Shown here: positions 23,701 to 47,267 of the stretch, piece after piece
Layout: every line of letters begins with the position of its first letter
How positions within the stretch are numbered: the first letter of the stretch is position 1
Assembly: GCF_964355755.1 (NCBI RefSeq)
Contig: NC_092672.1
Coordinates: forward strand, 22,502,501-22,566,500
DNA: 64,000 nt
Source of the DNA: Antedon mediterranea
Lineage: Eukaryota > Echinodermata > Crinoidea > Comatulida > Antedonidae
Direction: 5' to 3'
The notes under the pieces: model-generated
What the model was told of the DNA's origin: nothing
Databases searched by the model: none
Seen by the model: the letters and a program-made list of their open reading frames with translations, nothing else
Translations under genes and position numbers: made by a program

Positions 23701-26700
23701 AACATCAAGACATGTTTTATTGTCAGTAAAGTCTTCAAATTTCCATGGAATTCCCTCAGATTGACAGTCATCCTAAAATAATACAAACATGGCTGTTTAA
23801 TCAGCAGTATGATTATGTTTATAAAGGTTCATCATTATCACTGTTAGAGAAAAAAAGTGAATGATAATTCTCATCAACTTTAATTATTATTGTTATCTTA
23901 ATTATTTTATATTATATTATAATTATACTAGTATTTTGATATTTTTTTTACAAGATTCATTTGATATAAACTAAATGAAGTGCCATAATATTTTTCTTCA
24001 TTTTTTTTTTAAATAAAAGAACTTTTGTTATTATCACTCTAATAAAACACCGTAGCACCAACTGTATATTAGCATACTCTATATATAGAAAATAAGTTTG
24101 TTGGAATACCTGTTCTGCTTTGAGGAAGTTGTGCACAAAATGTTGCTGAAGCTTCTCATTTGCATAATTTATGCATAATTGCTCCAAACTGTTAAATGAA
24201 AAACTTTCAAATCCGTAGACATCCAGTAGACCAATGTAAGACTGCCAACTCCTGGCCATGGTACAGCCATTGATGAATCCAACGAGCCAATCAAAAACTC
24301 TGAAACGTTAAACCATAATTTAGTCACAGTCTTCAAAGCTAGTTTTTTTTTGGTAAAACCAAAGTGGGGTTGAAAAAGTTTGCATGTAAACATTTTCTCC
24401 TGTTACATACTAACTACATGACAAAGAAAGAAATTAGACAGAAAGAAGTCAGGCCATGACAGAAAGAGAGATTAGGCAAGAAAAAAAAATTAATTAAATT
24501 GACTAAGTATTAGAGTTTGCATGTACTCTAGTAGCTAGATCAACTTTCGTATGCACTTTGAGGTCCAGAGAATTTGACTTCAGAAATTGGTTTAGGGTGG
24601 TCAAACAATCAATTTTGGCTTGGTTACACATTTTGAAAATGTGGCGAAAGGTCAAAAGGTCAGGGTGAAAGGTTATAACACCAAACACCAACATGTCCTT
24701 AAATCTCGACAACCACTGGTCACAGCAAGGTAATTTTGGTCTCAAATTGATCAGAAGGTATACATTTATATTCAGTCTAATGGGACATTTTAGTAAAAAA
24801 TGACCGGAAATGCCATTTCTGACCTTTGACCCACAACTCAGGGCATGTATGTATCTCCGTAACTACTGGTCGTAGACACTTGAATTTGGTCTTAAACTGT
24901 TCGAAATATAGATTTTGTTATTTGTTACACATTTTGAAAAATGTTACAAAAGGTCAAAGAGTCAGGGTCAAGGGTTATATGAAGAAATATAAATAGCTAC
25001 TTGTATCTTGGCAACCACTGGTCGCAGCAAGTCAATGTTGGTCTCAAAATGTTCAGAAGGCATGCATTCATATTCAGTCTAATGGGGCATTTTAGTCAAA
25101 AATGATCAGAAATGCCCTTTCTGACCTTTGACCCACATACCAGGGCATCTTCATACCTCTGTAAGTACTGGTCGTAGAAACTTAAATTTGGTATCAAATT
25201 GTTGGAAATATACATATTTACATTCATTCTAACAGAAAATTTGGTGAAAAGATGATCAGAAATACTATTAATTACTAATGTTTCAAACAAAAAACATACC
25301 TCTACACAACTTATTCTGACAGGGCATCTTCATATCTCTGTAAGTACTGGTTGTAGAAACTTAAATTTGGTATCAAATTGTTCGAAATATACATATTTAC
25401 ATTCATTCTAATAGAAAATTTGGTTAAAAGATGACCAGAAATACTATTAATTACTAATGTTATTGTTTCAAACGAATAACATATTAGTAGAGGCTATATA
25501 TAGTTTGACCTTGAAAAAATTCTAATAAAAGGTCTTTTGGTATTTTCTTGTAGCTTTAGGTGTCAATAATTACCAAAAAATTTTTGCAGCCTTCTAGTTG
25601 CTGCGTTAGTGAGATATTGAGGGTCAAAGGTCAGTGACCTTTTTGTGGCATTTGATGGCTCATAATTCCTCAACTCCTGGGTTTAAAAAGACAAATGTGG
25701 TTTCTACATCTATGTTTTAGTGGTCAAACAACAAAATAAAGTTTTTGCCAATTTCAGGTTACTTGTGCCATTGGTCAGATAGTCGGGTCAAAGGTCATTG
25801 ACCTTTATTCATTAATAACTACTGCTAGTGTAGGACCTGAGTAAGATTTGTATGCATTCAATTTAGGAGAAAATATCTCAACTGTTATAGGATAATTTGA
25901 CCCCAAGGAACAATATGGGATATGTGTCAAATTCGTTATCTGGGGCGAAAATGCCCAAAATCGGGGTCAAGGGTTAGAAATGTGTGGTTCTTATATCTCG
26001 ACAACCACTTGTCATACAGATTTGCTTTTGGTGTCAAATTGTTCAGAATATACATATTTATATTCAGTCTAACACAACTTTTACCCAAAAAAATGACCGG
26101 AAATGCTTTTACTGACCTTTGACCAAAAAACACATTTTTGGGTTAAATTATTATTTAAAATGTCAATGGACACACTGTATGGTATCAAATGAAAGCATAT
26201 ACAATATGCTACCCATTGCTACCCAACTTATATTGAACATTTTTTAATTAGGAATCTAATCTTATGGAAAATGTGCCTAATTTGATTACTTTTATACAAA
26301 AAATGAATATTTAGTAGCGTAATTGTTGTGCTTATTTATATAATGTTAAATAATTTTAAATAAGTGTTTGGAAGAACTATTTGGTATCAAATAAAAGCCC
26401 ATACAATATTCTATCCATTGCTATCCAACTTTTAATACAAATCTGTAATTATGATGCTACTTTGGTGAAAAATGTGCATATTTTATTGCTTTTTGACAAA
26501 AATGGGTATACATTACCAGATAATTTATTTTGGTTTATTTATGATATTAAATAATTCAAATGTTTGAAAAGACATATTTGGTATCAAAGGAAAGCACATA
26601 CAATATGCTACCTAACTTGTATATAATTATGTGATGTTATTTTTGGAAAATATGCATATATTTTATTAAATTTAGACAAAAATGAGTATAAATTAATGTA

Positions 26701-29700
26701 AGTTTATTTTGGGTGAAATAATTCTAGCGTTGTAATGAAATTTGGTATAAAAAAGAAAAGAATTAGTTGTAGTTTATTAAGTTCTTTATTTGGTAGACCA
26801 AACAAAATGGCATTGCAGTAGTCTAACCGTGATGTTATTAGTGCATGGACAAGTTTAATAAGCGAGGAGTGGGTTAAGGATTTGCGAATTGATCTTATGT
26901 TACGAAGGTGGTAGGTATCAGATTTACTAATGTTGTTGATATGTCTGGACATAATCATTGCTGAGTCAAATACAACTCCGATATATCTAACCTCCAACGA
27001 TGATGTGATTGATGTTTCTAGCAATGGCCAATTTCTTGAAGTGTTTTGAATGAATAAATAAGATTTCTGTTTTACCAGGGTTAAAAAGAGCATGTTTTTA
27101 GTTAGCCAATCCTGAACATCAACAACACAAGCTTCGATAACCGACTTCGCCTCATTAAACTCTGCTGAATTAAAGCTGATGTATCATCTGCGTACACATG
27201 ATATTGGACACAATGTCTCTTAATGATATCACTCATGGGCGAGGTGTAAACTAAAAACAATACTGGACCCAGTATTGATCCTTGATGAACACCGCATTTC
27301 AGGTCGATAGAGGCGGATTTGACATTACCAATCTGGACCTGCTGCTTCCTAGAAGACAAATATGACTTGAACTAATTTAGAGCAGATCCACGGATACCAA
27401 TAGACGAAAGTCTTGCAATAATAATGGAATAGTCCATGGTATCAGAAGCTGCCGACAGGTCGAGGTACACAGAAAAAAGACAATTACCTTTATCCAGAGC
27501 TAAAATTATATCATTATGCACCTTGAGAATGGCTGACTCTGTACTGTGGCGCTTTTTATATGCTGATTGAAGAGGGTTGAACAGATTATTGTCGTCAAGA
27601 AAATGTATGAGATCTAAAGCAACGCATTTCTCAAGGATCTTAGATAAGAAAGCGACATTAGAAATAGATCGAAAATTTGCCATGCAAGTATGTGAAGGCG
27701 TCTTTAAAATAAGTGTAACTAGACCCAACTTCAAATCATCAGGAAAGGTCGTACCAGTTGATAAAGATAAATTAATAATAATTCTAAATGCTGAAATCAA
27801 TTATGCACATTTTCCATAAAGTTATATTCCTAATTAAAAATGTTTAATACAAGTTGGGTAGCAATGGGTAGCATATTGTATATGCTTTCATTTTATACCA
27901 TACAGTGTGTCCATTGACATTTTATGGAATAATTTAACCCGAAAATGTGTTTTTTTGGTCATTTTTTGGTCAAAGGTCAGTAAAAGAATTTCCGGTCATT
28001 TTTTGGGGTAAAAGTTGTGTTAGACTGAATATAAATATGTATATTCTGAACAATTTGACACCAAAAGCAAATCTGTATGACAAGTGGTTGTCGAGATATA
28101 AGAACCATACATTTCTAACCTTTGACCCCGATTTGGGCATGTTCGCCCCAGATAACGAATTTGGCACATATCCCATGTTGTTCCTTGGGGTCTAATTATC
28201 CTATAACAGTTGAGATATTCTCTCCTAAATTAAATGCATACAAATCTTACCAAGGTCCTAGACTAGCAGTAGTTATTAATGAATAAAGGTCAATGACCTT
28301 TGACCCGACTATCTGACCAATGGCACAAGTAACCCGAAATTTGCAAAAACTTTATTTTGTTGTTTGACCACTAAAACATAGATGTAGGCACAACATTTGT
28401 CTTTTTAAACCCAGGAGTTGAGGAGTTATGAGCCATCAAATGCCACAAAAGGTCACTGACCTTTGACCCTCAATATCTCACTAACGCAGCAACTAGAAGG
28501 CAGCAAAAATTTTTTTGTATTTATTCACACCTAAAGCTACAAGGAAATACCAAAAGACCTTTTATTAGAATTTTTTCAAGGTTACATAGGATAAATGTCA
28601 CATATAGCCTGTACTATATCTCTACACAACTTATCCTTGGACAGTAATGTTTTGCAATAACTTATGCTTTAAATTGTTTCAAACGAATTATACGATTTAA
28701 AACAAATCCTTTACTGTTTGTAATTGTATTTTTGCTTATAATAATGCTAGAAAGTATTTTTGACCCCCGAGGATGATCAAACATTTTGATAGAAACGTTG
28801 AGCCCAACAGAATTCTTTTCAGAATGCTAAAGTAGCTTACCGAATTCATCCTAATAAACGCCCCGGCATTTATTGTTCAGAAGGGATTTTTCGTTTTTTA
28901 TTGGTGTAATATGGTATGTATAATCAAATAAATACTACCTACAGCAGAAAAAAAAAATACAGCACAATTATTATCAAAAAGTGATACAAAATGCTTGGTA
29001 AATTGTAGATTATGGTAGTCATTGAAATGTGTTGTGATACAATTATTAGTCGCATGCAACGCAACTCTACAGCTCACTATGTCGGTCGGTTGGTCGGTAA
29101 ACACTAACAAAAATTTGAGCACGCGACTGCAGCCATGTATATGGCCTTGTTGTGTATATGCTTGTGGGAGTCGAATCGAAGGGAGGGGTGAGCGTTTATT
29201 TAAAATGTTTCTGTCTTTTAGAATAAAAGTGACACTGTCACAGGCTCCATTTAACGAATCCTCTCCAGGTGCCAGTATATAATGATATAAAACAATGACA
29301 TCATTATCCTGAGACGCTATATGAGACACGATTACACAATTTGTCATCTGTTTTGTTTGTAACTACAATTTGTCAACAATCAACACGTCTTTTGCATATA
29401 TGCCAATACATAGTTTCAATATGTCCAGCTTTCCTGATAACACCCTTGTGTACTGTAGTGTATTGTAGTATGATTTTATCATGATTTTAAAATACACTTC
29501 TGATGCTTTTATTGTCAATGCATTTAGTACTTAAAAAATAAAAAAACCTAAGTTTCTAGTGGTATTGATAATAAATCTCCAGAAATATTGTTTTATTATG
29601 TACACTGGGAACAGACGTGTATAAATTATGTATAATTTGTCTGTGACATTCAAAAATATTATACAACAGAATGATGACAATGAATTGGTCTATTATAGTT

Positions 29701-32700
29701 GTCTCCGATACCTTTTCAATATCATGATTGTACTTGCACCCGGATGAAGGAGGTTTCATCCAGGGGGGGGGGGGGGGGGTCAACAATATTTTCTAGCATT
29801 ATTATAAGCAAAAGTAAAATTACAAACAGTAAAGGATTTGTTGTAATTCCTATAATGAAACCATTTAAAGCATCAGTTATTGCATCCTTTTATATAAGAA
29901 TAACTTGTGTAGAGGTATGTAGTAATTAATAGTATTTCTGATCATCTTTTCACCAAATTTTCTGTTAGAATGAATGTAAATATGTATATTTCCAACAATT
30001 TGGTACCAAATTTAAGTTTCTACGACCAGTACTTACAGAGATATTAAGATGCCCTGGTATGTGGGTCAAAGGTCAGAAATGGCATTTCTGATCATTTTTC
30101 ACTAAAATGTCTCATTAGACTGAATATGAATACATGCCTTTTCAACATTTTGAGACTAAAATTGACTTGCTGCGACCAGTGGTTGCCAAGATACAAGTAC
30201 CTATTTGTGTTTGTTCATATAACCTTTGACCCTGACCCTTTGACCTTTTGTAACATTTTTCAAAATGTGCAACAAATAAATAAATGTATATTGCGAACAT
30301 TTTAGGACCTAATTCAAGTGTCTACGACCAGTACTTACGGAGATACATACATGCCCTCTGTAGTGGGTCAAAGGTCAGAAATGGCATTTCCGGTCATTTT
30401 TGACTAAATTGTCCCATTAGACTGAATATAGAATATGTATACCTTCCGATCAATTTGAGACAAAAATTACCTTGCTGTGACCAGTGGTTGTCGAGATTTA
30501 AGGACCTATTGGTGTTTGGTATTATAACCTTTCACCCTGACCTTTTGACCTTTCCCCACATTTTCAAAATGTGTAACCAAGCCAAAAATGATTGTTTGAC
30601 CATCCTAAACAAGTTTCTGAAGTCAAATTCTCTGGACCTCAAAGTGCATACGAAAGTTGATCTAGCTACTAGAGTAATGTATGTATGTTTATTTTATTTT
30701 TGTGAATGTTTAAAGGTGTATGTACGATTTGCTGTGGGCAATCCGCCTCAGTGCAGTCCAGCATGCATATGGGGAAGCAAATAAAAGTTATTGGATTTGT
30801 ACAACATCTTCTGTGGGTTTGTTTTGAATGTATAACAGGTCAGTAAAAAGGCAAATACTGCACAACAAGATCATTTTCAAAAGAGTAAATAGGTTTCTTT
30901 CACTACAAACAAATATAGCTTTAATGTTTGTAAAATACCTGGCATAGAGTAACTTTGCAAGACAATCTCTCCTTGTATGACATTCATCTTTTAAGCAAGG
31001 TTTCATAAAGACACTCTTTCTACGCTTGTGAGATGCAGTGATTTGTCGGAATGCTAGACATCTAGTTAAGGCATCAACATCAAGACCAAGTAACTGTGCA
31101 GCAGCTTTAACAGAGGTGTCAACTCCTGGTGAAGCAACATCAATAGTACAACAATATGATATATTGAATAATTAGTAAATTAGAAAATCTCTCTTTGGCT
31201 GAAATATTTTATCAACATTTTTTGAAGATGGAGAAAAATATTAATAAGATTATTTAAGATTTTAAAATGACATAATTATTAACGATATTTTTGTATATAT
31301 TTTTTGGGCAACCTATCGTAATATTAAGCTATTCCTTATGTCTGTTTTTAGTTATTTTTCATATATTATATTATGGTAGAAATAAAAACAAATTAAAAAA
31401 TACTAAAACGATATATAAACTGTTGATAGAATATTTTGAATCATAAATAAATGCCAATTTACTTTAGAATTAAAATTCTAATAAAATAAAAAAAAAAACC
31501 GTATTATAAATATAAGCTATTAAAACTTTAAGGTTGCAACTACTTTAAGCTAAACTATAAATACTGTATGCAATATTTGTATTGGTATAATAATTAAACA
31601 CCATAACCTTTATATCATTTACCTTGTTTTCCAGAATCAATTTCACATGGTCCAGTGACATCATCACTAATAAACTCTATATTTCCAAGATGAAGTATAC
31701 CACTTAGAACCTACAAATAAACACATTTCAAATACAATTCAATAATTCAAAAAATAGAATTATAACATTACTATTAGATTTATGTATAAAAAACATCAAA
31801 GTCTATTATCACTTATTTATATACTACCATATGGTTTTTCATTAAAGGCAAACCATAAATTTGTAAAAGTTGTTTTGAATCAATATACTATCATGATTGT
31901 AAAAACTAGGTAAAAGTTCACTGATGTTTACTGTCCACATGTGCTGGATTAGTTCAACCAATGCATCTAAACACATTGCTTTGGTTCAGTTAGTTCACTG
32001 ATGTTTACTGTCCACATGTGCTGGATTAGTTCAACCAAGGCATCTAAACACATTGCTTTGGTTCAGTTAGTTCACTGATGTTTACTGTCCACATGTGCTG
32101 GATTAGTTCAACCAAGGCATCTAAACACATTGCTTTGGTTCAGTTAGTTCACTGATGTTTACTGTCCACATGTGCTGAATTAGTTCAACCAAGGCATCTA
32201 AACACATTGCTTTGGTTCAGTTAGTTCACTGATGTTTACTGTCCACATGTGCTGGATTAGTTCAACCAAGGCATCTAAACACATTGCTTTGGTTCAGTTA
32301 GTTCACTGATGTTTACTGTCCACATGTGCTGGATTAGTTCAACCAATGCATCTAAACACATTGCTTTGGTTCAGCAGTTAGTTCACTGATGTTTACTGTC
32401 CACATGTGCTGGATTAGTTCAACCAAGGCATCTAAACACATTGCTTTGGTTCAGTCAGTTCACTGATGTTTACTGTCCACATGTGCTGAATTAGTTCAAC
32501 CAAGCCATCTAAACACATTGCTTTGGTTCAGTTAGTTCACTGATGTTTACTATCCACATGTGCTGAATTAGTTCAACCAAGGCATCTAAACACATTGCTT
32601 TGGTTCAGTTAGTTCACTGATGTTTACTGTCCACATGTGCTGGATTAGTTCAACCAAGGCATCTAAACACATTGCTTTGGTTCAGTTAGTTCACTGATGT

Positions 32701-35700
32701 TTACTGTCCACATGTGCTGGATTAGTTCATCCAAGGCATCTAAACACATTGCTTTGGTTCAGTTAGTTCACTGATGTCTACTGTCCACATGTGCTGGATT
32801 AGTTCAACCAAGGCATCTAAACACATTGCTCTGGTTCAGTTAGTTCACTGATGTTTACTGTCCACATGTGCTGGATTAGTTCAACCAAGGCATCTAAACA
32901 CATTGCTTTTGTTCAGTTAGTTCACTGATGTTTACTGTCCACATGTGTTGGATTAGTTCAACCAAGGCATCTAAACACATTGCTTTGGTTCAGTTAGTTC
33001 ACTGATGTTTACTGTCCACATGTGCTGGATTAGTTCAACCAAGGCATCTAAACACATTGCTTTGGTTCAGTTAGTTCACTGATGTTTACTGTCCACATGT
33101 GCTGGATTAGTTCAACCAAGGCATCTAAACACATTGCTTTGGTTCAGTTAGTTCACTGATGTTTACTGTCCACATGTGCTGGATTAGTTCAACCAATGCA
33201 TCTAAACACATTGCTTTGGTTCAGTTAGTTCACTGATGTTTACTGTCCACATGTGCTGGATTAGTTCAACCAAGGCATCTAAACACATTGCTTTGGTTCA
33301 ATTAGTTCACTGATGTTTACTGTCCACATGTGCTGGATTAGTTCAACCAAGGCATCTAAACACATTGTTTTGGTTCAGTTACTAATAATATCACCACTAA
33401 GTTTAACCAGTTCTAATTAAGTAAAAGTTTCTTACTTTAAATAATTCTTGTTGCTGTGACCTGCTAAAGTCCAACATTAGCCATCGCTTACTAACTAATT
33501 AAGTAAAAGTTTCTTACTTTAAATAATTTTTGTTGCTGTGACCTGCTAAGTCCAACATTACACATTGCTTGCTTTGTAATTATAAAATCTTGTTTATCCT
33601 TTTGATTACATGCATCTTCTGAACGGTTTAGTTTCACATAGTTTAAGTTGTCTGAACTCAATACGTTTGGTAGTAACCAGTTCCTCATTTCCCTTTCATT
33701 TCCGCCAAACAGCATCTATGATAATTTGAAAGAAGAAATGTTAATGATATTATTAAAAAGACTAATAATGAGAATAATATAAACTAATAATATATTTCAT
33801 GCTTTGATAACATTAGTAGAGTGAGTGCTTTCTTGCCCTATATTACAAAATATTACAAAGTGAGTGACAATTTTTTTTCAAGATGTTTAATATCATCAGT
33901 ACCAGAAAGATCCTTTTCACATCTGCCTACATTGATCTCCAGACTTATTAGATCTTTAATATATTGCAGGGTTTTCTCTAACCTGCAGAAAATATGCAAA
34001 TGTATCACAGTTCCAGCAGTTAAGTTAAACAGTTGGTTATCCGGTTTAAAGGTACACAAAAATGAAACATAACTAATACTAACTTGGTAAAAGATGTGAA
34101 AATTCCTGGCACCATCACATTGATAAACAACTCTAGTTTTCTCAAGAAGATATGTCTGAATAGAAGCACCAACAACATGATTTCCACTGAAAACAAAATT
34201 GGAAAGGTAAAATAAGAATTCCTCTTGTGTGTAATTTCATTCTTGCCTGCTATGACACACAAAATGGCATATGTAGAAACTCAAAATGCATGGCCTGTAT
34301 ACAGTATGTTGGTTGAACATTGACAAATAAAAATAATGTATGAAACTTACCGACTGAATTGTAGCTGAATGTACTTTCCAAAGCGGCTACTATTGTGATT
34401 CCTGGTTGTGCTAGCATTGCCTAAAAAATGAAATAATAGTTGTATAACAGAGATGGAGTTGTAGGGAGGTGTAGGGTACTGGGTGGCAAAAGATTAATAT
34501 TACTGTATATATATATACTGGTGCAGGCCATCAAATATTGCCATCAATTGCAATTCTACTAGTCTTAATGATACCAAATCTGCCAAAAATTAAATTTGAG
34601 CATAAAATCTCACCAAATTCATATTTAGAACATACTGTAAGTTCCCCACTGCTGATCAACAGTTTTAGCCTATATAATAGGAGTTTAAAGGATTTTGGCA
34701 CCATGACTGAAGGTTAAAGATATGCTAGAATTACAAAATGTAAAATCAGTACACAAACTGCTTTAAATTATCATTTTAAATTTCATTTTACATAAAGCGT
34801 TAATCAATTTTAGGTTAGGTGTAGCTTTATTTATTTATTTTTAAATCAGTATGATACTTATTGACTTTTATATTTCAGTTTTCTCAGGGAAGAGTTAAAT
34901 TACAATTTAATTTAACTCTTCCCTAGTTTTCTTGTAATTTTAATGGTACACTATCATTATGCTCATTTTTATTTGGTTCTCATCTCTTTATCGACTGTTC
35001 TTATTCTATTTTTTCTTTATCTGTTGATGATAATGATGATGAATATAGAAAATTTGATATATTGATATGATTTGAAAATGCTGATTTTGTATATTTAACA
35101 AAAATAAAGGTCCAACTTCTAGCGACCTTTCTTAGGACCATAACAGTACATAGATGTTTTTACATTTGAGAATGACATGTGTATCTTACTGTACTTTATT
35201 AAAAGATAAACGTAATAATTACCAAATGCTTCAAGAATAGGATTTGAGTCTAATATTCTACCTTCAATGCAATCTGCTGGTGATGGTGTAAAACCACTAA
35301 GAACAAAAAAGACAACAAGTTATAACAAATAAGTAACAAAACAGAGACAAATCTATAATTATGATGAAATAAAAACTGTAATTTTACATACATGAGAGTG
35401 TTTAATGATATTAAATTAAATGTGTTTAATTTTCATACCCAGGGTTACATACTGCCACCGTTGTCAGATATTTTAGTAAACATCTTGCATTCCATGTCTG
35501 TAATAAAACAGTAATAAATAACAGATAACAAAAAATATTGACTAAACTGCCTTTGTGAAAATGGGTTGCCAACATTCCCTCTTTGCACGTCTGGCAAGCA
35601 TTTAGTGACATTCAATAAATGCTGATTTTGTAACAGTGTCCTTTGAAACAGTAAAAACAAATTATAGCACTCTCTATTACTTGTCCATGCTTTTAGCCTC

Positions 35701-38700
35701 TCTATTTTTATTCAATTTTGGGCCTCACTAATATTTCAAAATAAAGAAGTGGTTTTGTAAAAAATTGACTGTGATTACATTGGTGAAAAGAAACGTAATT
35801 AACTGAAATTGTTGAATTACCTTTCCAGAACCACTTTCCCCGCTGACAATTATTGACTGATTAATCTTGTCTAGTCTTCTAGTAAGATTACACAATGCTA
35901 TTTCTGCAACTCTAAATACATGTGGTGGGTTTGCCTGATAAAATATATAATATAAAATAAAGATATATATAATATAAAATAAAGATGTATATTCCCCAAA
36001 AAACATGAAAATGAGGATTAATAAAATCAAGCCATTTTGCTGTTTTAATAAAGTTATTAATTTTAAAGAAATAAAAAACACACAAATATAGTGGTTTACT
36101 TTAAAAAAAGACAAAATGAATGGTTAAATTTAACTAAAAGCCCATTTTCTGACAGAAAATGTGACTGTTAAAAAATTACAGTTTTTCAGGTAAATAATGT
36201 TTTTTTTTTCCAATTTTTGGTCAAAAAGTGAATAACTACAGTATTATGTGACATAAAATGGCATATTCAGCAAAACAATTATCTTTTCAGGGAAGCTCAG
36301 CATATATCTCTAAGTTCTCACTTCTAAGTGCAACTGAGGACATATTAATATTTTTGCCCAATATTGAAGATAAAGTGAAGTCAAGATTTTAATAGTGATG
36401 TCACCAACATATAAATTTTCCTAAAAATCAATAGTATACTAGCGAATCATTGTTTACCTTTTGATCACTATGGTAACGATGAATCATATGAACATCAAAA
36501 TGTCCAGTTTCTTTGAAAGGATTTAAAGTAACAAGGGTGTTGCCAGTCTGAGTGTGGTATCTACCAGCTAAGTAGCGCTCACGTAAACAGTTCAGCACTA
36601 TGAACAGAAAAACTTAGGTTAAGTAACAAGTGTGTTGCCAGTTTGAGTGTGGTATCTACCAGCTAAGTACCGCTCATGTAAACAGTTCAGCACTATGAAC
36701 AGAAAACATTAGAAGTAACAAGTGTGTTGCCAGTCTGAGTGTGGTATCTACCAGCTAAGTACCGCTCATGTAAACAGTTCAGCACTATGAACAGACAACA
36801 TTTTGTTAAGTAACAAGTGTGTTGCCAGTCTGAGTGTGGTATCTACCAGCTAAGTACCGCTCACATAAACAGTTCAGCACTATGAACAGAAAACATTAGA
36901 AGTAACAAGTGTGTTGCCAGTCTAAGTGTGGTATCTACCAGCTAAGTACTGCTCAAGTGTGTTGCCAATATTTTGTCAAATTTTCTTCAAATTATTCGCT
37001 GTTCTACTCTAAAAATGTATTACTGAACTATCAATTTTATTTTAAAGTGAGTATTTAATTTGGAAAAATTTGAAGGAAAATGTTGGATTCATCCAAATTG
37101 TGGTCTTTGATCTCTAATTAGTTAGAGGGAGGCAGCAGCTAATGGTAAAAATAGGTGATCATCTGGCTTTAAATTAGATTGAGCTTTTAATTAAAGGGAT
37201 CTTTAATAGGAGGAAGACCTGTATAGTACTAACAACCATTGAAACATGTGTCTACTATTAATTCACTTACCAGCAGGTTCTGAGAGAGGATTAATCAAAA
37301 CAAGATCATCTGTATTGATCCAATCTGTTTGAGTACACAGCACTGGATAGCCAGCATGACCACGTATCACAACCTCCTAGACAATGAAGTTACAAGCAAT
37401 ATTTAAAATACATTATATAGAATATTTAGTAGCAAGGTTGGGTTGTTGACATAGATGGTATGCTTCCCTCCCCTCCTTACCTCACAATTATATTTTGTGT
37501 CTATAATCTTGCCATCACTAAAACATGAATTAACACACGCTGGAACCCAAACCTCTTACCTGGCCATTAGATTTAGTGACTATAATCTTGCCATCACTAA
37601 AACATGAATTAACACACGCTGGAACCCAAACCTCTTACCTGGCCATTAGATTTAGTGACTATAAACTTGCCATCACTAAAACATGAATTAACACACGCTG
37701 GAAGGAACCCAAACCTCTTACCTGGCCATTAGATTTAGTGACTATAAACTTGCCATCATTAAAACATGAATTAACACACGCTGGAACCCAAACCTCTTAC
37801 CTGGCCATTAGATTTAGTGACTATAATCTTGCCATCACTAAAACATGAATTAACACATACTAGAACCCAAACTTCTTACCTGGCCATTAGATTTAGTGAC
37901 TATAATCTTGCCATCACTAAAACATGAATTAAGACACGCTGGAACCCAAACCTCTTACCTGGCCATTAGATTTAGTGACTATAAACGTGCCATCACTAAA
38001 ACATGAATTAACACACGCTGGAACCCAAACCTCTTACCTGGCCAATAGATTTAGTGACTATAATCTTGCCATCACTAAAACATGAACCAACACACGCTGG
38101 AACCCAAACCTCTTACCTGGCCATTATATTTAGTGACTATAATCTTGCCATCACTAAAACATGAATTAACACACGCTGGAACCCAAACCTCTTTTTCATT
38201 ATGTATCCACACCATTAACCCCTGAAAGTACAGTAAACAGTTCATTATTCAATTCAATCAACTTTTATTATCCACAATCTGATTCTTTTGGTTGTGGCAG
38301 ACTCACAAATGTAAACAAACATTTAAAACAAACATTTAAAATACACATGTATACAAATTATTGCTAAAGAGTAATTTTTGTAAAGTCTAACAGCTTTCAT
38401 AATAAATTATTCATTTGGAGCTTTGAGGACTAAACTATGTATTGAAAAGAGGATGTGTTTCATTTTGAAGGATCTAATAGTAATTATTCTGTATATAAAT
38501 CTTTATGTTAAAACCATTAATGAATACGTACATGTGTGACGTTTCAACTTGTTTTTAACAAGTCAGGGAATGACTATTTGTAATTTGTAATTTAGTCTGT
38601 GATTTTCCGAAGTTCTTTGCCTTTTTAGGGGGCGCTAATCTACAACTAGCAAAGCTACAGTACTCCTAGCAACTACTAACATCTAGTCAGTTGCCAGATG

Positions 38701-39448: not shown

Positions 39449-39452
39449 CTGT

Positions 39453-39750
39453 TGTTGTGAACGGCGCCCGCTGGGTAAACAGACCACCCCTCCGACCGAA
39501 CGAGGGCGTCGCCCCGATAGCTTGATTTGCATACAGGGGGTATGCAAATGTTAACGTGGGGCCTTGACGCCGGCCGAACCGAGCTATTCGAAGCAGGAAC
39601 CAAGGAGAAACGGACGCAACCGGAATTGACAAAGATATTTGGATTTACTGCTTTCGGATACTTGTGTGATTTAGGACAAGCGGGACTGTTAAGGTAAGCC
39701 TAGTAGCTTTCATTATCAGGCCATTCCAGCACCGACCTAAAATCACAACA
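39453..39750 (+). repeat. 5' LTR
   Basis: Starts TGTTGTGA and ends TCACAACA. Contains inverted POU octamers ATTTGCAT (39525-39532) and ATGCAAAT (39542-39549). Confidence 0.96.
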
Positions 39751-39768
39751 TTGGCGCTGCGAGCAAAA
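39751..39768 (+). other. Primer-binding site
   Basis: TTGGCGCTGCGAGCAAAA immediately follows the 5' LTR, in the position of the tRNA primer site. The tRNA is not identified. Confidence 0.6.
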
Positions 39769-40575
39769 GCTCGGAAATCTTTTTTTTTGGTGGGGAGGCG
39801 GGTGCCTTGATTGCCAGCTGGCATTCTTAACGTGATCGGGTTGATTGCGAGGTATTTCGTCCTCTGCTGAAATTATTAACTTATTGTACTTACGGTGCAT
39901 TTGTTAGTTTATTGAAGTTGGTATATTTATTGAAGGTATAACATACCGGTAAAGTTAATCACGCAGTATTGTGGCATTTGGATACTTGCTGATTAGCGTA
40001 TCGACGGGGTAGTCGATGCGTACCGGGAGTTGTATTTATTTTGCTATAGTTGAAGGATTAGTGGGCAGTTTACTAGGCCGTATCACCTGGTGGGATACTG
40101 GGCGTGGCCGTTGAACTGAGTGGCACCACTAATTTTAAATTTGATTGTTTTTTATTGATAACATCTTTTTCGTCCGTCAGTCAGGTTTTTCATCTTGAGA
40201 AATTATATTGGCTGTGCGTATTATTGTGTTAACCTCACAGTGGCATTATCGCTCTCCTTTCTTTGCATCGGGGGAAGGTTTAGTGGTAAGTGTTGTTAAA
40301 CTGTATTGACGTCTCTTTGAATAATCTAGTTGTTTCTCATTGCAGGTTTGCTGGTGAAATATTTTATTATATTTGCATCTCCAACAACCATTTTGCAATA
40401 TTGTGTGTGTGTTACTGCATTGACGATATTTTATTCTACTGTTGGGCCTGTAATTTTTATTACGTCTGGCGGTATTTTAATTTGTATCGTACTCTTTGCT
40501 TAATAACATCTGCCATACACTGTAACTAGATTTAGGAGCATAACAACCCAATAGAAGAGAGACGATTTTTAGATC
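39769..40575 (+). other. Retrotransposon leader
   Basis: Untranslated stretch of about 0.8 kb before gag. The 79-codon frame at 40290-40529 is hydrophobic and has no family likeness, so it is not called. Confidence 0.5.
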
Positions 40576-42489
40576 ATGTCGTCTAATAAGGTTCTAGTTA
40601 ACTTTTGCCCAGTGCAAGATCTTCATGGAGTCCCTAATGTAGGGAAGAAACGAGCAACTAGAATAATTAAATGGCGGGCTACCCATGGCAACATTACGCC
40701 CTCTAATATTAATCAGATACACGGAGTAGCTGGTACTGCCAGGTTGGTGGATTACCTGGATTTTCAGCCGAATCCGAGTTTAGGGGGAGGCGTAGGCCAG
40801 ATGATTGATAATGTGTCACCTATAGTGGAGAAGCAAAATAGAGCGGCCAGAAAGGGGTCGCAGGTCTCACAATCTGTAGGTATGGAAGGGGCATATCGGG
40901 GGAAAAATGACGGGGGCCATAGTGGTCGATACCACGTCCTCTCATCGCCCCAGGCTACTCCTTTATTAGACGTACCAGGTACGTATTATACTACAGGACC
41001 TGCTAGTGATCCTCGTTATCTCGAAGGTGGGCTTGGGGCTTATACGCCATCCACCTTCGCTGGGCGTTCTGACCAGGATAGGAGTAAGAATAGGTCAACA
41101 CAACGTAGGAGCTACATCAAAAAGCCATCTCCGATAACCTTAGACTCGTGTTTTAGCTCTAGGGAGGACGAGGAGGAAAGACTCCCCAGGAGACTATCTA
41201 AAACCGCTAGGTCTAAAACTAGGGCTCGCCGGCGATCTCCATCGGCCAGCGATAGTGACCTTAGTGGGGATGGTGCTGATACTGATAGTAGCAGGAGTAG
41301 AGAGTCGGATAGACAGTCGGATAGACATAGTGCAGGGGCTAGGACAGCAGTGGAGTGTCTTAGGGCGACCCCAAGAATCAGGCACTATGAAGGCCGGCAG
41401 GGTTTTTTAGAACGTAGGAGGATGCGTAAAAAAGATATACCTAGGTCTCTAACGTTTAGGGGGAGGGGAGACAACTGGTCCTTTTTTAAGCGGCGGTTGG
41501 CTTCATTTATAGAGGAGCAGGAACTCACAAACCGTGAAAGTAAGGACGTCCTTACTTGGTGTTTAGACGGGGCGGCGGCTGAGTTCTATGTGAATCTGAT
41601 AGAAATGGACGCTGATTTGGGCTTTAGGCAGATCATTAAAGCTTTTAACCGACGTTTTAGTGAGGACGAGCTCCCCGCAGTCCTCCAAGCTAAATTAGAG
41701 ACTGCTACGCAAAATGAGGGAGAGACTATAGAGGAATGGGGAGATAGAGTGCTAACCTTGACTAGAAAGGCGTTTAAGGATTTGCCCAAGGAGTGGATCC
41801 AAGAGCAGGCCGTAGTTAGGTTTTGTATTGGGTGCAGGGATGCAGAAGTAGGTAGGCACGTCATGCACAAGCACTGTTCAACTATTCCCAGAGCTATTAG
41901 GGAGTTTGAAAAATATGATAGTTATAGGGGGCTATATAGTAAACGTAAGAGTAAGGTTAAGGATACCGTGAAACCTCATGTTAGGTCCACGGTCCGTACT
42001 TCTTTTGCACCCCCACTATCTTTTCAGCTACCTTCAGAAGACCAGGACGATACCGAGGGTGAAACTGGCGATGAGGTGTCCATTCAGCAGGTGCGAGGGA
42101 GGCCTATGAGGGGAAACCGTGTAACGTTTCAAAGGCCAGCACCAGCTTGGGTTCCTCCGGAACCCGCACCTACTGACGGCCAGAACCAGCCTCGAACTGT
42201 GACGTCGGTGCCACCCACCAACAATACTCCTACTACAGAAGCCCGTTTGGCTACTGTGGAGGGTAATTTCCAGACGTTGAATACCAATCTGGGACGGGTG
42301 GAGAACACCGTGAACACGGAGATTGCCGCCATGCGGAATCAATTGGATCAGCTCATGCGTTTCCTGAAACCAGGCGAACTGGCTTGTTTTGAATGTAAGG
42401 AGGTGGGACACTTCCGCAGGGAGTGTCCGAGATTAGCGAGCCGTTTGCGTCAGGTTAGTGGCAATGAGCCGGATCCGTTAAACGAGTAA
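40576..42489 (+). CDS. gag: Gag polyprotein with HhH-like N-terminus and zinc knuckle
   Basis: 637 residues, the structural protein of the retrotransposon particle. Residues about 12-60 (VQDLHGVPNVGKKRATRIIK ... NINQIHGV) fit a helix-hairpin-helix DNA-binding pattern, unusual for Gag. A Ser/Arg-rich low-complexity region follows (about 170-260). A helical capsid-like region (FRGRGDNWSFFKRRLASFIE ... VLTWCLDGAAAEFY) spans about 290-450. Near the C-terminus lies a CCHC knuckle, CFECKEVGHFRREC, which binds RNA. It ends at TAA 42487-42489, four codons after a GTTAAAC heptamer that could shift ribosomes into pol. Confidence 0.93.
   Translation: MSSNKVLVNFCPVQDLHGVPNVGKKRATRIIKWRATHGNITPSNINQIHGVAGTARLVDYLDFQPNPSLGGGVGQMIDNVSPIVEKQNRAARKGSQVSQSVGMEGAYRGKNDGGHSGRYHVLSSPQATPLLDVPGTYYTTGPASDPRYLEGGLGAYTPSTFAGRSDQDRSKNRSTQRRSYIKKPSPITLDSCFSSREDEEERLPRRLSKTARSKTRARRRSPSASDSDLSGDGADTDSSRSRESDRQSDRHSAGARTAVECLRATPRIRHYEGRQGFLERRRMRKKDIPRSLTFRGRGDNWSFFKRRLASFIEEQELTNRESKDVLTWCLDGAAAEFYVNLIEMDADLGFRQIIKAFNRRFSEDELPAVLQAKLETATQNEGETIEEWGDRVLTLTRKAFKDLPKEWIQEQAVVRFCIGCRDAEVGRHVMHKHCSTIPRAIREFEKYDSYRGLYSKRKSKVKDTVKPHVRSTVRTSFAPPLSFQLPSEDQDDTEGETGDEVSIQQVRGRPMRGNRVTFQRPAPAWVPPEPAPTDGQNQPRTVTSVPPTNNTPTTEARLATVEGNFQTLNTNLGRVENTVNTEIAAMRNQLDQLMRFLKPGELACFECKEVGHFRRECPRLASRLRQVSGNEPDPLNE
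42477..42483 (+). promoter_or_regulatory. Candidate -1 ribosomal frameshift site
   Basis: The heptamer G-TTA-AAC in the gag frame fits X-XXY-YYZ loosely. GUUAAAC is a known working slippery site. The stop codon is two codons on, and the pol frame is -1 and open from 42468 into the long pol frame. Confidence 0.55.
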
Positions 42490-42578
42490 GGGTTGGGTCA
42501 GAGGGCCGACGACCTAACCCGGTTCCGGAAGCTGGCCAGAAAGAGGATGGTTCGTCGACTATCCCCAAGCTAGGCCCG

Positions 42579-45500
42579 ATGGCCAAGCCTGTAAATACAG
42601 AGGGGGTAGCACCGGATCCTGTGACGATCATTGAGCCGTCTGCAATTAGCTCAGGGCTGATTGAATCATCTACACCGACGACAACCAAAACTGAAGAGAC
42701 TCAAACCCGGATTGTTATCAATAGGGTAAAATCATTGAATGCGTTGCATGCAACTGCTTTTGTCAATGGTACCAAAATTGACGCAGTCGTGGATACTGCA
42801 GCGGATTTTACCATACTATCCGATAAGGTTTATAAAAGTCTAGATCCGGCACCACCTGTGGTGTCCACCCTGTCCTTTACTTTGGCAGGGAGGGGGACAT
42901 CTATGCCAGGGTCGAAGGTGGGGCCGCTACAGTTTACATTGGGAACCAAAGAGTACCATGAATTCTTTTATGTTGCCCCCATCAATGACGATATGCTCTT
43001 GGGTGGTGATTTTCTTCATCCACAGGGAGCCGTTATCGATTGTGGAAATTTGCTTTTGGCAATTGGGGGCAGTACCATATCTCTAAGAGGGGATTCACCG
43101 GTGGAACCTAGGGTTGCCCAGGTAACGGTGGCTAAACGGAGAGTAATTCCTCCTCACTCAGCCGCTCATGTTAAATGTAAACTTGTGACTAACAATGTAT
43201 CTATGCCTGATTTCTTTATAGAGCCAGTTCCAACTACTGACGATGTGGCGATACCGGCAACTTTACATCTACGCACTGATGCGCCATGCATCTGTGTCAT
43301 CAACACATCTGATCATTACCTTACTATGAAAAAGGGTAGACAGATAGGTACGGCCAGGGAAGCTGAAGGGGTGAGTGTGTTCCAGACGGGGGCGACTCCG
43401 TCCGAGGATGCTTTGTCGAATCAAGCGGACGATGACGGTGACCAACCTGAGGGGGTGCCGGCGCACCTAGTGGGCATGTTGGACTCTTCGAGATCTAATC
43501 TCTCAGGTGAAGAGGCTGACGCGCTCACTAAACTATTGGTTGATTACCAGGATGTCTTCGCCGCTCATCAGTTCGACATTGGCACCTTTGGTGATATTGA
43601 ACACAGCATCGACACTGGAGATGCCTCACCGATCAGGCAACGGCTCCGCCATACTCCTCTGCGCTTTGTGGGGGAGGAGGAAAAGGAGATAAAGAAGATG
43701 TTGGAGGCTGGTGTTATTCAACCATCCATGTCTGAATGGGCGTCACCGCCTGTGTTGGTCCGGAAGCGCGATGGTTCTGTGCGCTTTTGCATTGACTATC
43801 GAGCTCTCAACAACATCACGACTAAAGATGCGTATCCATTACCTCTGATTCGTGATTGCCTTGACACACTGTCGGGGAATATCTGGTTTTCTAAACTGGA
43901 CGCGATTTGGGGGTACTGGCAGATTAAGATGAAGGATGAAGACCGTAAGAAGACAGCGTTTATCACCAAGCATGGCCTGTATGAATTCGTGAAGATGCCA
44001 TTTGGTCTTACCAATTGTCCTGCAACCTTCTCCCGTGCCATGGGTTTGGTGCTGCGGGGATTGGCGTGGGATACGGTATTGGCATTTCTCGATGATATTG
44101 TCGTGCTAGGTAAAACGTTTGAAGATCATCTCAGCAACCTCTCTCAGGTTCTGCAGCGATTTCGTGTTAACAACTTTAAACTTAAACCTAAAAAGTGTGT
44201 TTTCTTTCAGAAACAGGTTGAATTTTTAGGGCGAATCGTTGGGGAGGATACGGTGGCAGTGTCCGATTCGGATATAAAGGCTGTTCAAGACTGGCCGGCA
44301 CCTACCCATCTGAGAGAAGTACAGCAGTTCTTGGGGTTGGCTAATTACCATAGAGAGTTCATTGAGAACTTTGCTGGTTTAGCTGCACCTCTATATGAAC
44401 TCACTAAAAAAGAGGTGAAGTTTCACTGGGATGAGGAACAACAACAAGCGTTCACCGACCTGAAAGCTGCTCTCGTTCAACCTCCTCTACTCGCCTTGCC
44501 GAACGGGACTGATGAATTTATTCTGGATGTCGACGCTTCGGATCAAGCGCTAGGAGGCGAGCTGCTCCAGGTGCAGGAAGGTAAGGAGAAGGTAATTGCA
44601 TACGCAAGTGCTCGTCTAACTCATGAACAACGGAACTATTGCACTACACGCAAGGAGTTGCTAGCAATTGTGTTCATGACAAGGCATTTTAGGCACTACC
44701 TTCTAGGCAGACCTTTTAGAGTGCGGACTGATCACAATAGCCTGACCTGGCTCCTCAACTTCAAGCAGCCACAGGGGCAACTTGCTCGGTGGATTGAGGA
44801 GTTGAGCCAGTACCACCTGTTGATTGAACACCGCCGAGGGCAACACCATGGCAACGCCGATGCTCTGTCTCGCCGACCCGAAACTCATGACAGTAGCCAC
44901 GAACGGCCTGCGCTTGAAGGGCTTCCCTGTGGGGGCTGTTCGTACTGTCAACGAGCGGATGCGAGATGGTCAGCGTTCCAGGATGAAGTGGACGACGTTG
45001 TGCCCATCGCGCACGTACACCAGGTAGCCGTGGACCACCTGGAGGGTACTCTGCCAGGGGACGATGTTCCTTGGGACCCCGGTGGACAAGTAAGTATAGA
45101 GGTATCACGGACTGCTACTAACGGTACGATTCAGTTTTCTTTCCTACAGGACGATGATGGTGGACGAGTGGCTGCAGTACAGCTACGGCCGAAGGGAGCC
45201 GAGTGTTGGGGTTACTCACTGGATGAGCTACGGCAACATCAAACGAGTGATCCTGACTTGGCACCTGTTCTGGACTGGTTGCGGAATGGGGAACCCTCCG
45301 AGAATCAGCTGTTTATCTCCAGCGCTGCCACCAAACACTACTGGCTGAACAGGCAACGCTTGCATCTCACGGAAGCAGGTATACTGTTCATCAACCAAGC
45401 AGAGGGTACCGGACGACTACTTGTGTTGCCCAAGGAGCTACATGCCGTAGCTTTTAGGTTACATCATGATTTGCCGTCGGCGGGTCATCAAGGGGTCGCT

Positions 45501-46727
45501 CGGACCAAGTTCCGATTGAAGGAGAAGTTTTTCTGGTACGGTATGGGCGGGGATATACAGAGGTATGTACAGACTTGCAATATTTGTAATAGAAGCAAGA
45601 AGGCTACTCGGCAAGGTCGACATCGGTTGACTGAATTCCAGGCCGGCGTTCCCATGGAACGCGTACATATCGATTTCCTCGGCCCGTTACCAAAAACTGA
45701 ACAGGGGAATATTTACGTTCTTATGATGGTCGACCAATTCACAAAATGGGTTGAGATCAGCCCGCTCCCGTCTCAGGTTGCGGAGGTAACCGCTAGAGCC
45801 CTAGTAAGGGACTTCTTCTCTAGATTCGGTGTACCTTTTCAGTTGCACTCAGACCAGGGGAGAAATTTTGAGAGTGAATTGTTTGCATCTTTGTGTAAAG
45901 TTTTACAGATCCACAAGACCCGGACGACAAGCTACCGACCGTCGGCTAATGGTCAAGTAGAGCGATTTAATCGAACACTTATGGATGCTGTACGATGCTT
46001 CGTTGGGAAGAGACAACGAGACTGGGATGTCTATCTACCGCAGATTGCTGGTGCACTACGCGCCACGGTGAACCGCTCGACTGGTTTTACTCCAAACATG
46101 CTGATGCTGGGCCGAGAGGTAAATTTACCAGCTGATCTCATGTTCGGAGAATGCCGGTCCACTGATGAGCAGGAAGCCGCTATCTACGTTGCAGATTTGG
46201 TGAAAGCGACCCGTGATGCCCATGGCATCGCTAGGGATACGCTAAAGCAGACTCAGAAGAGGATGAAACGGGACTATGATCTTCGAGTGCTGGAACGTCC
46301 ATACCAATGTGGGGACAAAGTCTACGTTCTGGACAACGCTACCCCTCGGGGGAAGTGCAAGAAATTGTGTCCCCCCTGGAAGGGGCCTGGTATTATCACT
46401 AAGGTTATTAGTTCTTGTTTATTTCAGGTGCAGCTGAGAAACAAGACAGTGGTTTTAAATCATGACAAGCTGAAGCCTTGTCGGGATCGACAGCTTCCTA
46501 AATGGCTGGTTGATTTTAACTTACTTCCTCTCTCTTCACCTACAGATCCGGATGCAGGAGGACCGTTGTATTGTCTATGTCGCCAGCCCTGGGCCGGCTC
46601 ATTTATGATACAATGTGACTATTGCGAGGTGTGGTACCATGGTGCATGTGTGAATATTGCACCGTCTGAGGCCTTGGACATCGACTTATATCGATGTGCG
46701 GACTGCAAGTCCTCGGTTAACAATTAG
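42579..46727 (+). CDS. pol: Pol polyprotein: protease, RT, RNase H, integrase, PHD finger
   Basis: 1,382 residues from the first Met. The frame is open back to 42468, so expression as a Gag-Pol fusion is likely. Domains: aspartic protease with VVDTAADFTILSD near residue 72 (DTAA in place of the usual DTGA); RT with KLDAIWGYWQI and FLDD near 503; RNase H with FILDVDASDQALGG, ELLAIVF and VRTDHNSL; integrase zinc site HHDLPSAGH...CNICNRS near 960-1000; integrase core with D, D and E in HIDFLGPLP, LHSDQGRNF and NGQVERFNRTL (about 1029, 1090, 1127). Residues about 1329-1377 form a C4HC3 PHD finger (YCLCRQPWAG ... MIQCDYCEVWYHGACV ... DIDLYRCADC) just before the end. No premature stop. Confidence 0.96.
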   Translation: MAKPVNTEGVAPDPVTIIEPSAISSGLIESSTPTTTKTEETQTRIVINRVKSLNALHATAFVNGTKIDAVVDTAADFTILSDKVYKSLDPAPPVVSTLSFTLAGRGTSMPGSKVGPLQFTLGTKEYHEFFYVAPINDDMLLGGDFLHPQGAVIDCGNLLLAIGGSTISLRGDSPVEPRVAQVTVAKRRVIPPHSAAHVKCKLVTNNVSMPDFFIEPVPTTDDVAIPATLHLRTDAPCICVINTSDHYLTMKKGRQIGTAREAEGVSVFQTGATPSEDALSNQADDDGDQPEGVPAHLVGMLDSSRSNLSGEEADALTKLLVDYQDVFAAHQFDIGTFGDIEHSIDTGDASPIRQRLRHTPLRFVGEEEKEIKKMLEAGVIQPSMSEWASPPVLVRKRDGSVRFCIDYRALNNITTKDAYPLPLIRDCLDTLSGNIWFSKLDAIWGYWQIKMKDEDRKKTAFITKHGLYEFVKMPFGLTNCPATFSRAMGLVLRGLAWDTVLAFLDDIVVLGKTFEDHLSNLSQVLQRFRVNNFKLKPKKCVFFQKQVEFLGRIVGEDTVAVSDSDIKAVQDWPAPTHLREVQQFLGLANYHREFIENFAGLAAPLYELTKKEVKFHWDEEQQQAFTDLKAALVQPPLLALPNGTDEFILDVDASDQALGGELLQVQEGKEKVIAYASARLTHEQRNYCTTRKELLAIVFMTRHFRHYLLGRPFRVRTDHNSLTWLLNFKQPQGQLARWIEELSQYHLLIEHRRGQHHGNADALSRRPETHDSSHERPALEGLPCGGCSYCQRADARWSAFQDEVDDVVPIAHVHQVAVDHLEGTLPGDDVPWDPGGQVSIEVSRTATNGTIQFSFLQDDDGGRVAAVQLRPKGAECWGYSLDELRQHQTSDPDLAPVLDWLRNGEPSENQLFISSAATKHYWLNRQRLHLTEAGILFINQAEGTGRLLVLPKELHAVAFRLHHDLPSAGHQGVARTKFRLKEKFFWYGMGGDIQRYVQTCNICNRSKKATRQGRHRLTEFQAGVPMERVHIDFLGPLPKTEQGNIYVLMMVDQFTKWVEISPLPSQVAEVTARALVRDFFSRFGVPFQLHSDQGRNFESELFASLCKVLQIHKTRTTSYRPSANGQVERFNRTLMDAVRCFVGKRQRDWDVYLPQIAGALRATVNRSTGFTPNMLMLGREVNLPADLMFGECRSTDEQEAAIYVADLVKATRDAHGIARDTLKQTQKRMKRDYDLRVLERPYQCGDKVYVLDNATPRGKCKKLCPPWKGPGIITKVISSCLFQVQLRNKTVVLNHDKLKPCRDRQLPKWLVDFNLLPLSSPTDPDAGGPLYCLCRQPWAGSFMIQCDYCEVWYHGACVNIAPSEALDIDLYRCADCKSSVNN
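46562..46712 (+). other. PHD-finger coding segment at the end of pol
   Basis: Spacing is C-x1-C-x11-C-x2-C-x4-H-x2-C-x15-C-x2-C. The Tyr before the first Cys, the Met-Ile before the third and the Trp-Tyr before His match H3K4me3-binding PHD fingers, notably the PHF2/PHF8 family, which also end in an IDLY-type motif before the last Cys pair. Confidence 0.88.
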
Positions 46728-46948
46728 GTACTCGCGTTTATTTTCTCTTCTCTCTCAGACAGGGACCAGGTGCCGTTTGCTGACGGAAGCGGGGGACGGT
46801 GCTACTGGCATGTCCCACGGCCATTGACTATCTGAAGAGATCGTTGGGAGCAGTCTACATAGCTACGGGTATCGGGTATTTTTTCACGTACGAAAATCAC
46901 CTGGTTTACCCCCGAGGTGGACCCAGGACGGGGTGCCCGCTTTTCAAA

Positions 46949-46959
46949 CACGGGAGGAG
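46949..46959 (+). other. Polypurine tract
   Basis: ACGGGAGGAG directly before the 3' LTR, the usual plus-strand primer position. Confidence 0.65.
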
Positions 46960-47257
46960 TGTTGTGAACGGCGCCCGCTGGGTAAACAGACCACCCCTCC
47001 GACCGAACGAGGGCGTCGCCCCGATAGCTTGATTTGCATACAGGGGGTATGCAAATGTTAACGTGGGGCCTTGACGCCGGCCGAACCGAGCTATTCGAAG
47101 CAGGAACCAAGGAGAAACGGACGCAACCGGAATTGACAAAGATATTTGGATTTACTGCTTTCGGATACTTGTGTGATTTAGGACAAGCGGGACTGTTAAG
47201 GTAAGCCTAGTAGCTTTCATTATCAGGCCATTCCAGCACCGACCTAAAATCACAACA
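46960..47257 (+). repeat. 3' LTR
   Basis: 298 bases, apparently identical to the 5' LTR, followed by CTGT. Octamers at 47032-47039 and 47049-47056. Confidence 0.96.
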
Positions 47258-47267
47258 CTGTGCTAAT

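Follow-up and report, generated by a model that had tools for sequence, protein, structure and literature searches.

A recently active Ty3/gypsy-type retrotransposon of Antedon mediterranea with a KDM7-like PHD finger behind its integrase, a possible tether to H3K4me3-marked chromatin

The window analyzed here is a stretch of 64,000 nucleotides of the crinoid Antedon mediterranea (assembly GCF_964355755.1, contig NC_092672.1, positions 22,502,501 to 22,566,500 of the forward strand). It holds a Ty3/gypsy-type retrotransposon at 39453-47257 and exons of a host myosin gene. The features are as follows, in window positions; families A to D are the element families described below, and loci outside the window carry L numbers.

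18171..36613, minus strand: host myosin gene with a MYO19-like head, exons located by tblastn with a human MYO19 sequence
39449..39452, no strand: target site duplication CTGT, left copy (flank letters)
39453..39750, plus strand: 5' LTR, 298 bp, TGTTGT...ACAACA, identical to the 3' LTR
40576..42486, plus strand: Gag frame with Retrotrans_gag, a CCHC knuckle and a weak N-terminal helix-hairpin-helix match
42471..46724 (open frame 42468-46727), plus strand: Pol frame with protease, RT, RNase H, integrase H2C2, rve and PHD
45462..46475, plus strand: integrase, with H2C2, DDE core and a C-terminal region with WKGPGII
46476..46565, plus strand: linker between integrase and PHD, 30 residues, fast-evolving (dN 0.44 between families A and B)
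46566..46706, plus strand: PHD finger, C4HC3, cage Y32/W39/M44/W53
46960..47257, plus strand: 3' LTR, identical to the 5' LTR
47258..47261, no strand: target site duplication CTGT, right copy (flank letters)

The window element is intact in outline. As in other Ty3/gypsy elements, its LTRs run from TG to CA and are flanked by a short target duplication, and the Pfam scan gave the domain order protease, RT, RNase H and integrase. The Gag and Pol frames overlap in different reading frames. In Gag, Retrotrans_gag (24.4 bits, cut-off 24.1) and zf-CCHC (23.4, cut-off 20.8) were recognized, and a weak HHH_3 match at the N-terminus (40582-40698) remained below its cut-off (22.2 bits against 27). Pol is a single intact frame of 1,419 codons, in which Pfam detected RT, two RNase H models, Integrase_H2C2, rve and, as the last domain, PHD, together with two protease models close to their cut-offs (27.4 against 28.2 and 26.5 against 24.3). 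At the integrase C-terminus, where a GPY/F module would be expected, the window reads WKGPGII. Of the Pfam models for this region, SH3_Tf2-1 was matched in family C and Integrase_p58_C in both C and D, in each case below cut-off. The same Pfam scan of Pol returned no Chromo match at E values up to 0.1 and no JmjC match.

An earlier sequence-only reading had claimed that a full C4HC3 PHD finger closes an intact Pol frame, and this was borne out by Pfam, by the eight ligands and by the open frame. PF00628 scored above its cut-off of 24 both in the whole Pol (32.6 bits, E 7.9e-8) and in the last 83 residues alone (39.5 bits, E 5.9e-10), and the zinc ligands are C33, C35, C47, C50, H55, C58, C74 and C77. 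When the PHD core was written as a degenerate DNA pattern, it occurred once in the 64-kb window and had no match in 100 shuffles. At E values up to 0.001, matches were found to 47 distinct PDB sequences, of which the best were PHF8 (1wep, E 3.9e-17) and PHF2 (3kqi, 6.8e-16), followed by PHF2 (7m10, 1e-15) and KDM7A (3kv5, 9e-15). The PHD finger of KDM7B is described as reading H3K4me3 through a cage of Y7, Y14, M20 and W29 (PMC10321576). In the alignment, all four cage positions are occupied in the element, by Y32, W39, M44 and W53, so that the aromatic and methionine positions of H3K4me3 readers noted earlier are indeed present; the second position is W in the element versus Y in KDM7, and the element loop is one residue shorter. 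The DID end is common to both. An IDLY-type end had been likened to that of PHF2 and PHF8; the ending itself was found, as DIDLY, and it is the same as in KDM7A, whereas PHF8 and PHF2 end in DIDIY. An AlphaFold prediction of the PHD finger was too shallow (mean pLDDT 40) and was set aside. These comparisons support a KDM7-like assignment of the element PHD finger, in which no position of the methyl-lysine cage is left empty.

A search of the host genome (354 Mb, 18 contigs) with the 83-residue PHD query gave 52 matches, 28 of which were near-complete element PHD fingers: 19 of family A, which comprises the window element and its derivatives, three of family B, and six of families C and D. The remaining 24 represented fragments or exons of the host; reading by eye covered 13 of them (L036-L039 and L042-L050), and the names of the host exons (KDM7, BPTF, KDM5 and so on) were likewise assigned by eye. 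Long frames with a PHD finger measured 1,418-1,419 aa in family A (four places), 1,463 aa in B and 1,311 aa in C (two places). Pfam placed the PHD finger above cut-off in the three further families (one copy each of B, C and D) and confirmed it in one derivative copy. The fingers of the four families are 64-85% identical to one another. Because the PHD matches of families B, C and D each included one stop codon, readthrough was considered; it was rejected, as translation showed that in the copies read the frame ends naturally at this stop.

Alignment A1 had nine rows, eight from elements and one from L001 (described below). In it, W39, M44, W53 and six of the eight ligands were invariant, and Y32, C33 and C35 were present in all eight element rows, failing only in L001, where the start of the frame differs. 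Between families A and B, dN was 0.134 in the PHD finger, 0.175 in the integrase and 0.44 in the linker, with dS saturated. The 18 other family A copies showed 27.5 nonsynonymous and 55.5 synonymous changes relative to the window, a per-site ratio of 0.12, which is approximate, since these copies include degraded and non-autonomous ones and the comparisons share branches. When the rows were read, neither a ligand nor a cage residue was missing in 14 of these 18 copies, and the losses were confined to one ligand each in L015, L025 and L026 and to W39 in L020. The data indicate that the PHD finger is conserved and kept by selection while the linker drifts. They bear on the reading of the domain as a passenger, that is, a host exon caught by chance and unused: the domain is short and PHD fingers occur in several repeated frames of the host genome, but its presence in four families with saturated synonymous change, low dN and preserved cage and ligands disfavors that reading through this signal of selection, and we consider it very improbable.

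We then compared the integrase with that of other gypsy elements in the same genome. The search yielded at least 119 matches, with 116 of 1,104 candidates scored. Among the matches listed, all 17 that were at least 56% identical and reached the last query residue had a PHD match directly behind (two of the 17 partial; ten shorter fragments of at least 56% identity were not judged), and two matches below 56% (42% and 44%) reached the last residue without a PHD match; the closest relatives lacking a PHD finger were, among the matches listed, at most 44% identical in the integrase. For L069-L074, six relatives at 34-44% identity, Pfam detected no PHD in the integrase tail; in L071 and L073 the frame extends past the stretch analyzed, so that a domain further on is possible there. 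The integrase p58 C-terminal model scored above cut-off in five of the six, two had C2H2-like sequence further on, below cut-off, and L069-L072 had a basic tail by eye. In L073 (2-799), an integrase tail is followed in one frame by sequence that is RT-like by eye, i.e., the integrase precedes RT. L075 proved to be a broken copy belonging to the PHD lineage. A tree of the integrase tails, built on 11 short rows, set the PHD lineage apart from the six others with 98% support. Because the matches of at least 56% identity that reach the last query residue carry the PHD finger and it was not found in the relatives at 34-44%, the domain marks a single gypsy lineage.

As for its origin, the family A finger was 51-55% identical to human KDM7 PHD fingers, 50% identical over a 26-residue overlap to a host KDM7-like exon (L047), and also 50% identical over 36-residue overlaps to two host BPTF-like exons; the family C finger was 56% identical to one host BPTF-like exon. 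The suggestion that a host reader had been captured is supported as to the KDM7-like type; capture from the host's own KDM7 is conjectural, its exon being, at 50%, as similar to family A as the BPTF-like exons. On the basis of the DID end and the PDB ranking, a KDM7-like ancestor is the better guess, not a proven one, and a recent catch from the A. mediterranea host appears unlikely. A PHD phylogeny including host rows consisted of short rows as well; some of its groupings were clear artefacts, such as a host row joining family C on a very long branch, and no origin was read from this tree. On a contig labelled Nitrospinota (a MAG), L001 (559-699) holds a KDM7-like PHD frame beside a TatD-like frame, and its finger is 69% identical to family A over 39 residues. 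This contig is probably a eukaryotic contaminant, perhaps mobile; the subtype therefore also occurs on a contig other than those of the element. In the viral collection, no relative of the element was found by protein or by pattern, and the one hit with a PHD alignment (L054) was rejected, being a tailed-phage contig by eye in which the frame is stop-ridden. PHD fingers also lie in other repeated host frames: a search that scored 150 of 416 candidates and gave at least 130 matches included L076, L077, L078 and L079. When these were read by eye, L077 resembled an ORF1, L078 contained an OTU-like stretch, and L076 and L079 resembled LINEs, with a region of endonuclease type; the full cage is absent, again by eye, from the two LINE-like frames.

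The lineage has been recently active. In five of the seven copies with two LTRs (the window element, L010-L013, L015 and L016) the LTR pairs are identical, the exceptions being L010 with two substitutions and L015 with one; 4-bp duplications flank five of the seven, with none in L011 and L015. The landing sites of these seven insertions were compared with random loci over 700 bases on each side; for the controls, 24 places were drawn from 10 of the 18 contigs, and the first 14 were used. The GC content was 0.379 at the insertions (n=7) versus 0.318 at the random loci (n=14; p 3e-4), each insertion flank lying above each control, whereas the CpG ratio did not differ (0.75 versus 0.73, p 0.69). 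In 16 one-sided flanks, a set that leaves aside L017, L018 and L027 (5' end unclear) and L028 and L029 (without a family A LTR), GC was 0.356 versus 0.317 in 28 control halves (p 0.001), and the CpG ratio again showed no difference (p 0.46). A preference for CpG-island-like targets, significant against the window background alone, vanished with the 14 random loci and was discarded. The flanks of 15 loci held 34 frames of at least 90 aa; Pfam was run on three of them and identified reverse transcriptase in two (L014 and L025), and the L026 flank carries gypsy-like frames by eye, so that the GC excess may reflect neighboring repeats. The higher GC, a proxy from composition and not from start sites, fits landing near genes and also landing in GC-rich repeats. 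On this weak proxy, the outcome for the earlier idea of promoter targeting is mixed, being favored by GC and not by the CpG ratio.

Targeting linked to Pol III was rejected, as no tRNA gene was found in the window or in 19 of 20 copy loci. At L025 (46-909), a degraded family A copy is accompanied by a tandem array of four tRNA-Val genes. In the window, the myosin gene, whose exon with the P-loop gave matches to PDB myosins (best E 1.3e-4), has its 5' side towards the element. The two are divergently oriented, and the element is 2.8 kb upstream of 36467-36613, the 5'-most exon that is supported; this is an anecdote. A further N-terminal exon, placed by eye at about 38.1-38.2 kb, found no support, and we propose no start site. 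Two minisatellites also lie 5' in this gene: one at 36515-36958, with units of 92/95 bp, in which part of a coding myosin exon is repeated, and one at 37384-38256, with 79-bp units, in which the repeated frame resembles a myosin N-terminal exon by eye, without database support.

Six copies (L021-L024, L026 and L027) form a non-autonomous derivative. In blastn against the window element, they aligned over all or part of the LTR, over the leader to 40534 and over the piece 46403-46789, which includes the PHD finger, with some 3' sequence also aligning in L023; nothing of the remaining pol aligned in any of the six. Their PHD frames are free and 100-109 aa long. L020 is laid out similarly, although its linker is fuller. 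L022, the sole derivative read further between the leader and the PHD piece, has an 818-aa frame there without a Pfam match, the start of which matches the window Gag (34% over 76 aa, E 1e-7) in the region of the weak HHH_3 hit. The retention of the PHD finger with loss of the rest of pol is notable, and descent alone could explain it. This retention apart from any integrase core is what speaks for a role at another step, such as integrase stability or multimerization, nuclear import, anti-silencing, or host transcription through the free 100-aa frame; as complete elements have the finger as the end of Pol behind the integrase, and conservation covers cage residues besides zinc ligands, we regard such a role as quite unlikely.

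Chromoviruses are Ty3/gypsy elements with a histone-reading chromodomain at the C-terminus, behind the integrase C-terminal region. By analogy, the PHD finger would most likely be a chromatin-reader module at the place of this chromodomain, serving as a tether to H3K4me3. In the proposed mechanism, the finger in the pre-integration complex would most likely dock through its Y-W-M-W cage on H3 tails trimethylated at lysine 4 and bring the integrase core to active, promoter-near chromatin, thus doing the job of the chromodomain with the opposite kind of mark. From the residues and comparisons above we infer H3K4me3 binding, tethering and a promoter bias, and we give about an even chance to the view that this recently active Ty3/gypsy-type element uses its KDM7-type integrase PHD finger as a tether to promoter-near chromatin marked by H3K4me3. 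The wider proposition, namely a lineage with a natural H3K4me3 reader on its integrase as an address label for active promoters, kept in at least four diverged families and even in a derivative that lacks the enzyme genes, is a tentative one that we place somewhat below even.

PHD fingers vary in their ligand, KDM5B PHD1 being one example, and the finger could be a tether whose target is unmodified H3 or some other state of the tail, which would confer a general affinity for euchromatin or nucleosomes with no choice of promoters. The W in place of the KDM7 Y, the shorter loop and the GC bias without a CpG bias would agree with this; the unchanged CpG ratio, these two cage and loop differences and the equal similarity of the BPTF exons also count against an H3K4me3 tether. 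In contrast, the nearest sequence relatives are KDM7 PHD fingers, all four cage positions are preserved across the element families, and the KDM7B finger is described as having no affinity for unmethylated H3K4 (PMC10321576). We therefore hold a tether of this other kind to be possible but unlikely. For the preferred H3K4me3 tether, a precedent is available: a fusion of the ING2 PHD finger to the integrase-binding domain of LEDGF is reported to have shifted HIV-1 integration to start sites and active genes, so that a PHD finger can act as an integrase tether (PMC8149907).

Among the papers listed by searches of an open-licence full-text library, with Repbase reports and subscription papers outside this scope, we found none on a PHD finger behind a gypsy integrase. 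The closest published case found, as far as the text available from that source goes, is the Ginger1-9_HM transposase, a gypsy-integrase-like enzyme with a PHD finger near its C-terminus; the domain is given for one of the 16 families of the paper's Table 1, together with Ulp1, and that text makes no mention of a K4me3-type cage (PMC2836005). Ginger1 is a DNA transposon with terminal inverted repeats (PMC2836005), whereas the present element has direct LTRs and RT. CR1/L2 LINEs are likewise retrotransposons whose proteins can carry a PHD finger, described as lying mostly in ORF1, and so not on an integrase, with a general targeting role suggested by the authors (PMC4120745). The engineered ING2-PHD/LEDGF fusion also tethers a retroviral integrase through a PHD finger, but it is man-made and bound through LEDGF (PMC8149907), whereas the element PHD finger is natural and part of the same polypeptide. 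With the KDM7 demethylases (PHF8, PHF2 and KDM7A) the element shares the Y/Y(W)/M/W cage and the DID end; it differs in that Pol has no JmjC match and its PHD finger is C-terminal. Integration guided by histone marks concerns repressive marks in chromoviruses, and for active chromatin it is known chiefly from host adaptors or engineered fusions. An integrase that naturally ends in such a reader would offer a direct, testable system for targeting an active mark. If true, it could explain the spread of a young family into gene-near DNA, and reader domains would be exchangeable address labels. The element and the chromoviruses are alike in having a Ty3/gypsy Pol with a domain of histone-reading type behind the integrase C-terminal region, and differ in that the element has a KDM7-like PHD finger and no chromodomain match, which, if the proposed tether is correct, would make its choice of landing sites the opposite of that of relatives homing to silent chromatin.
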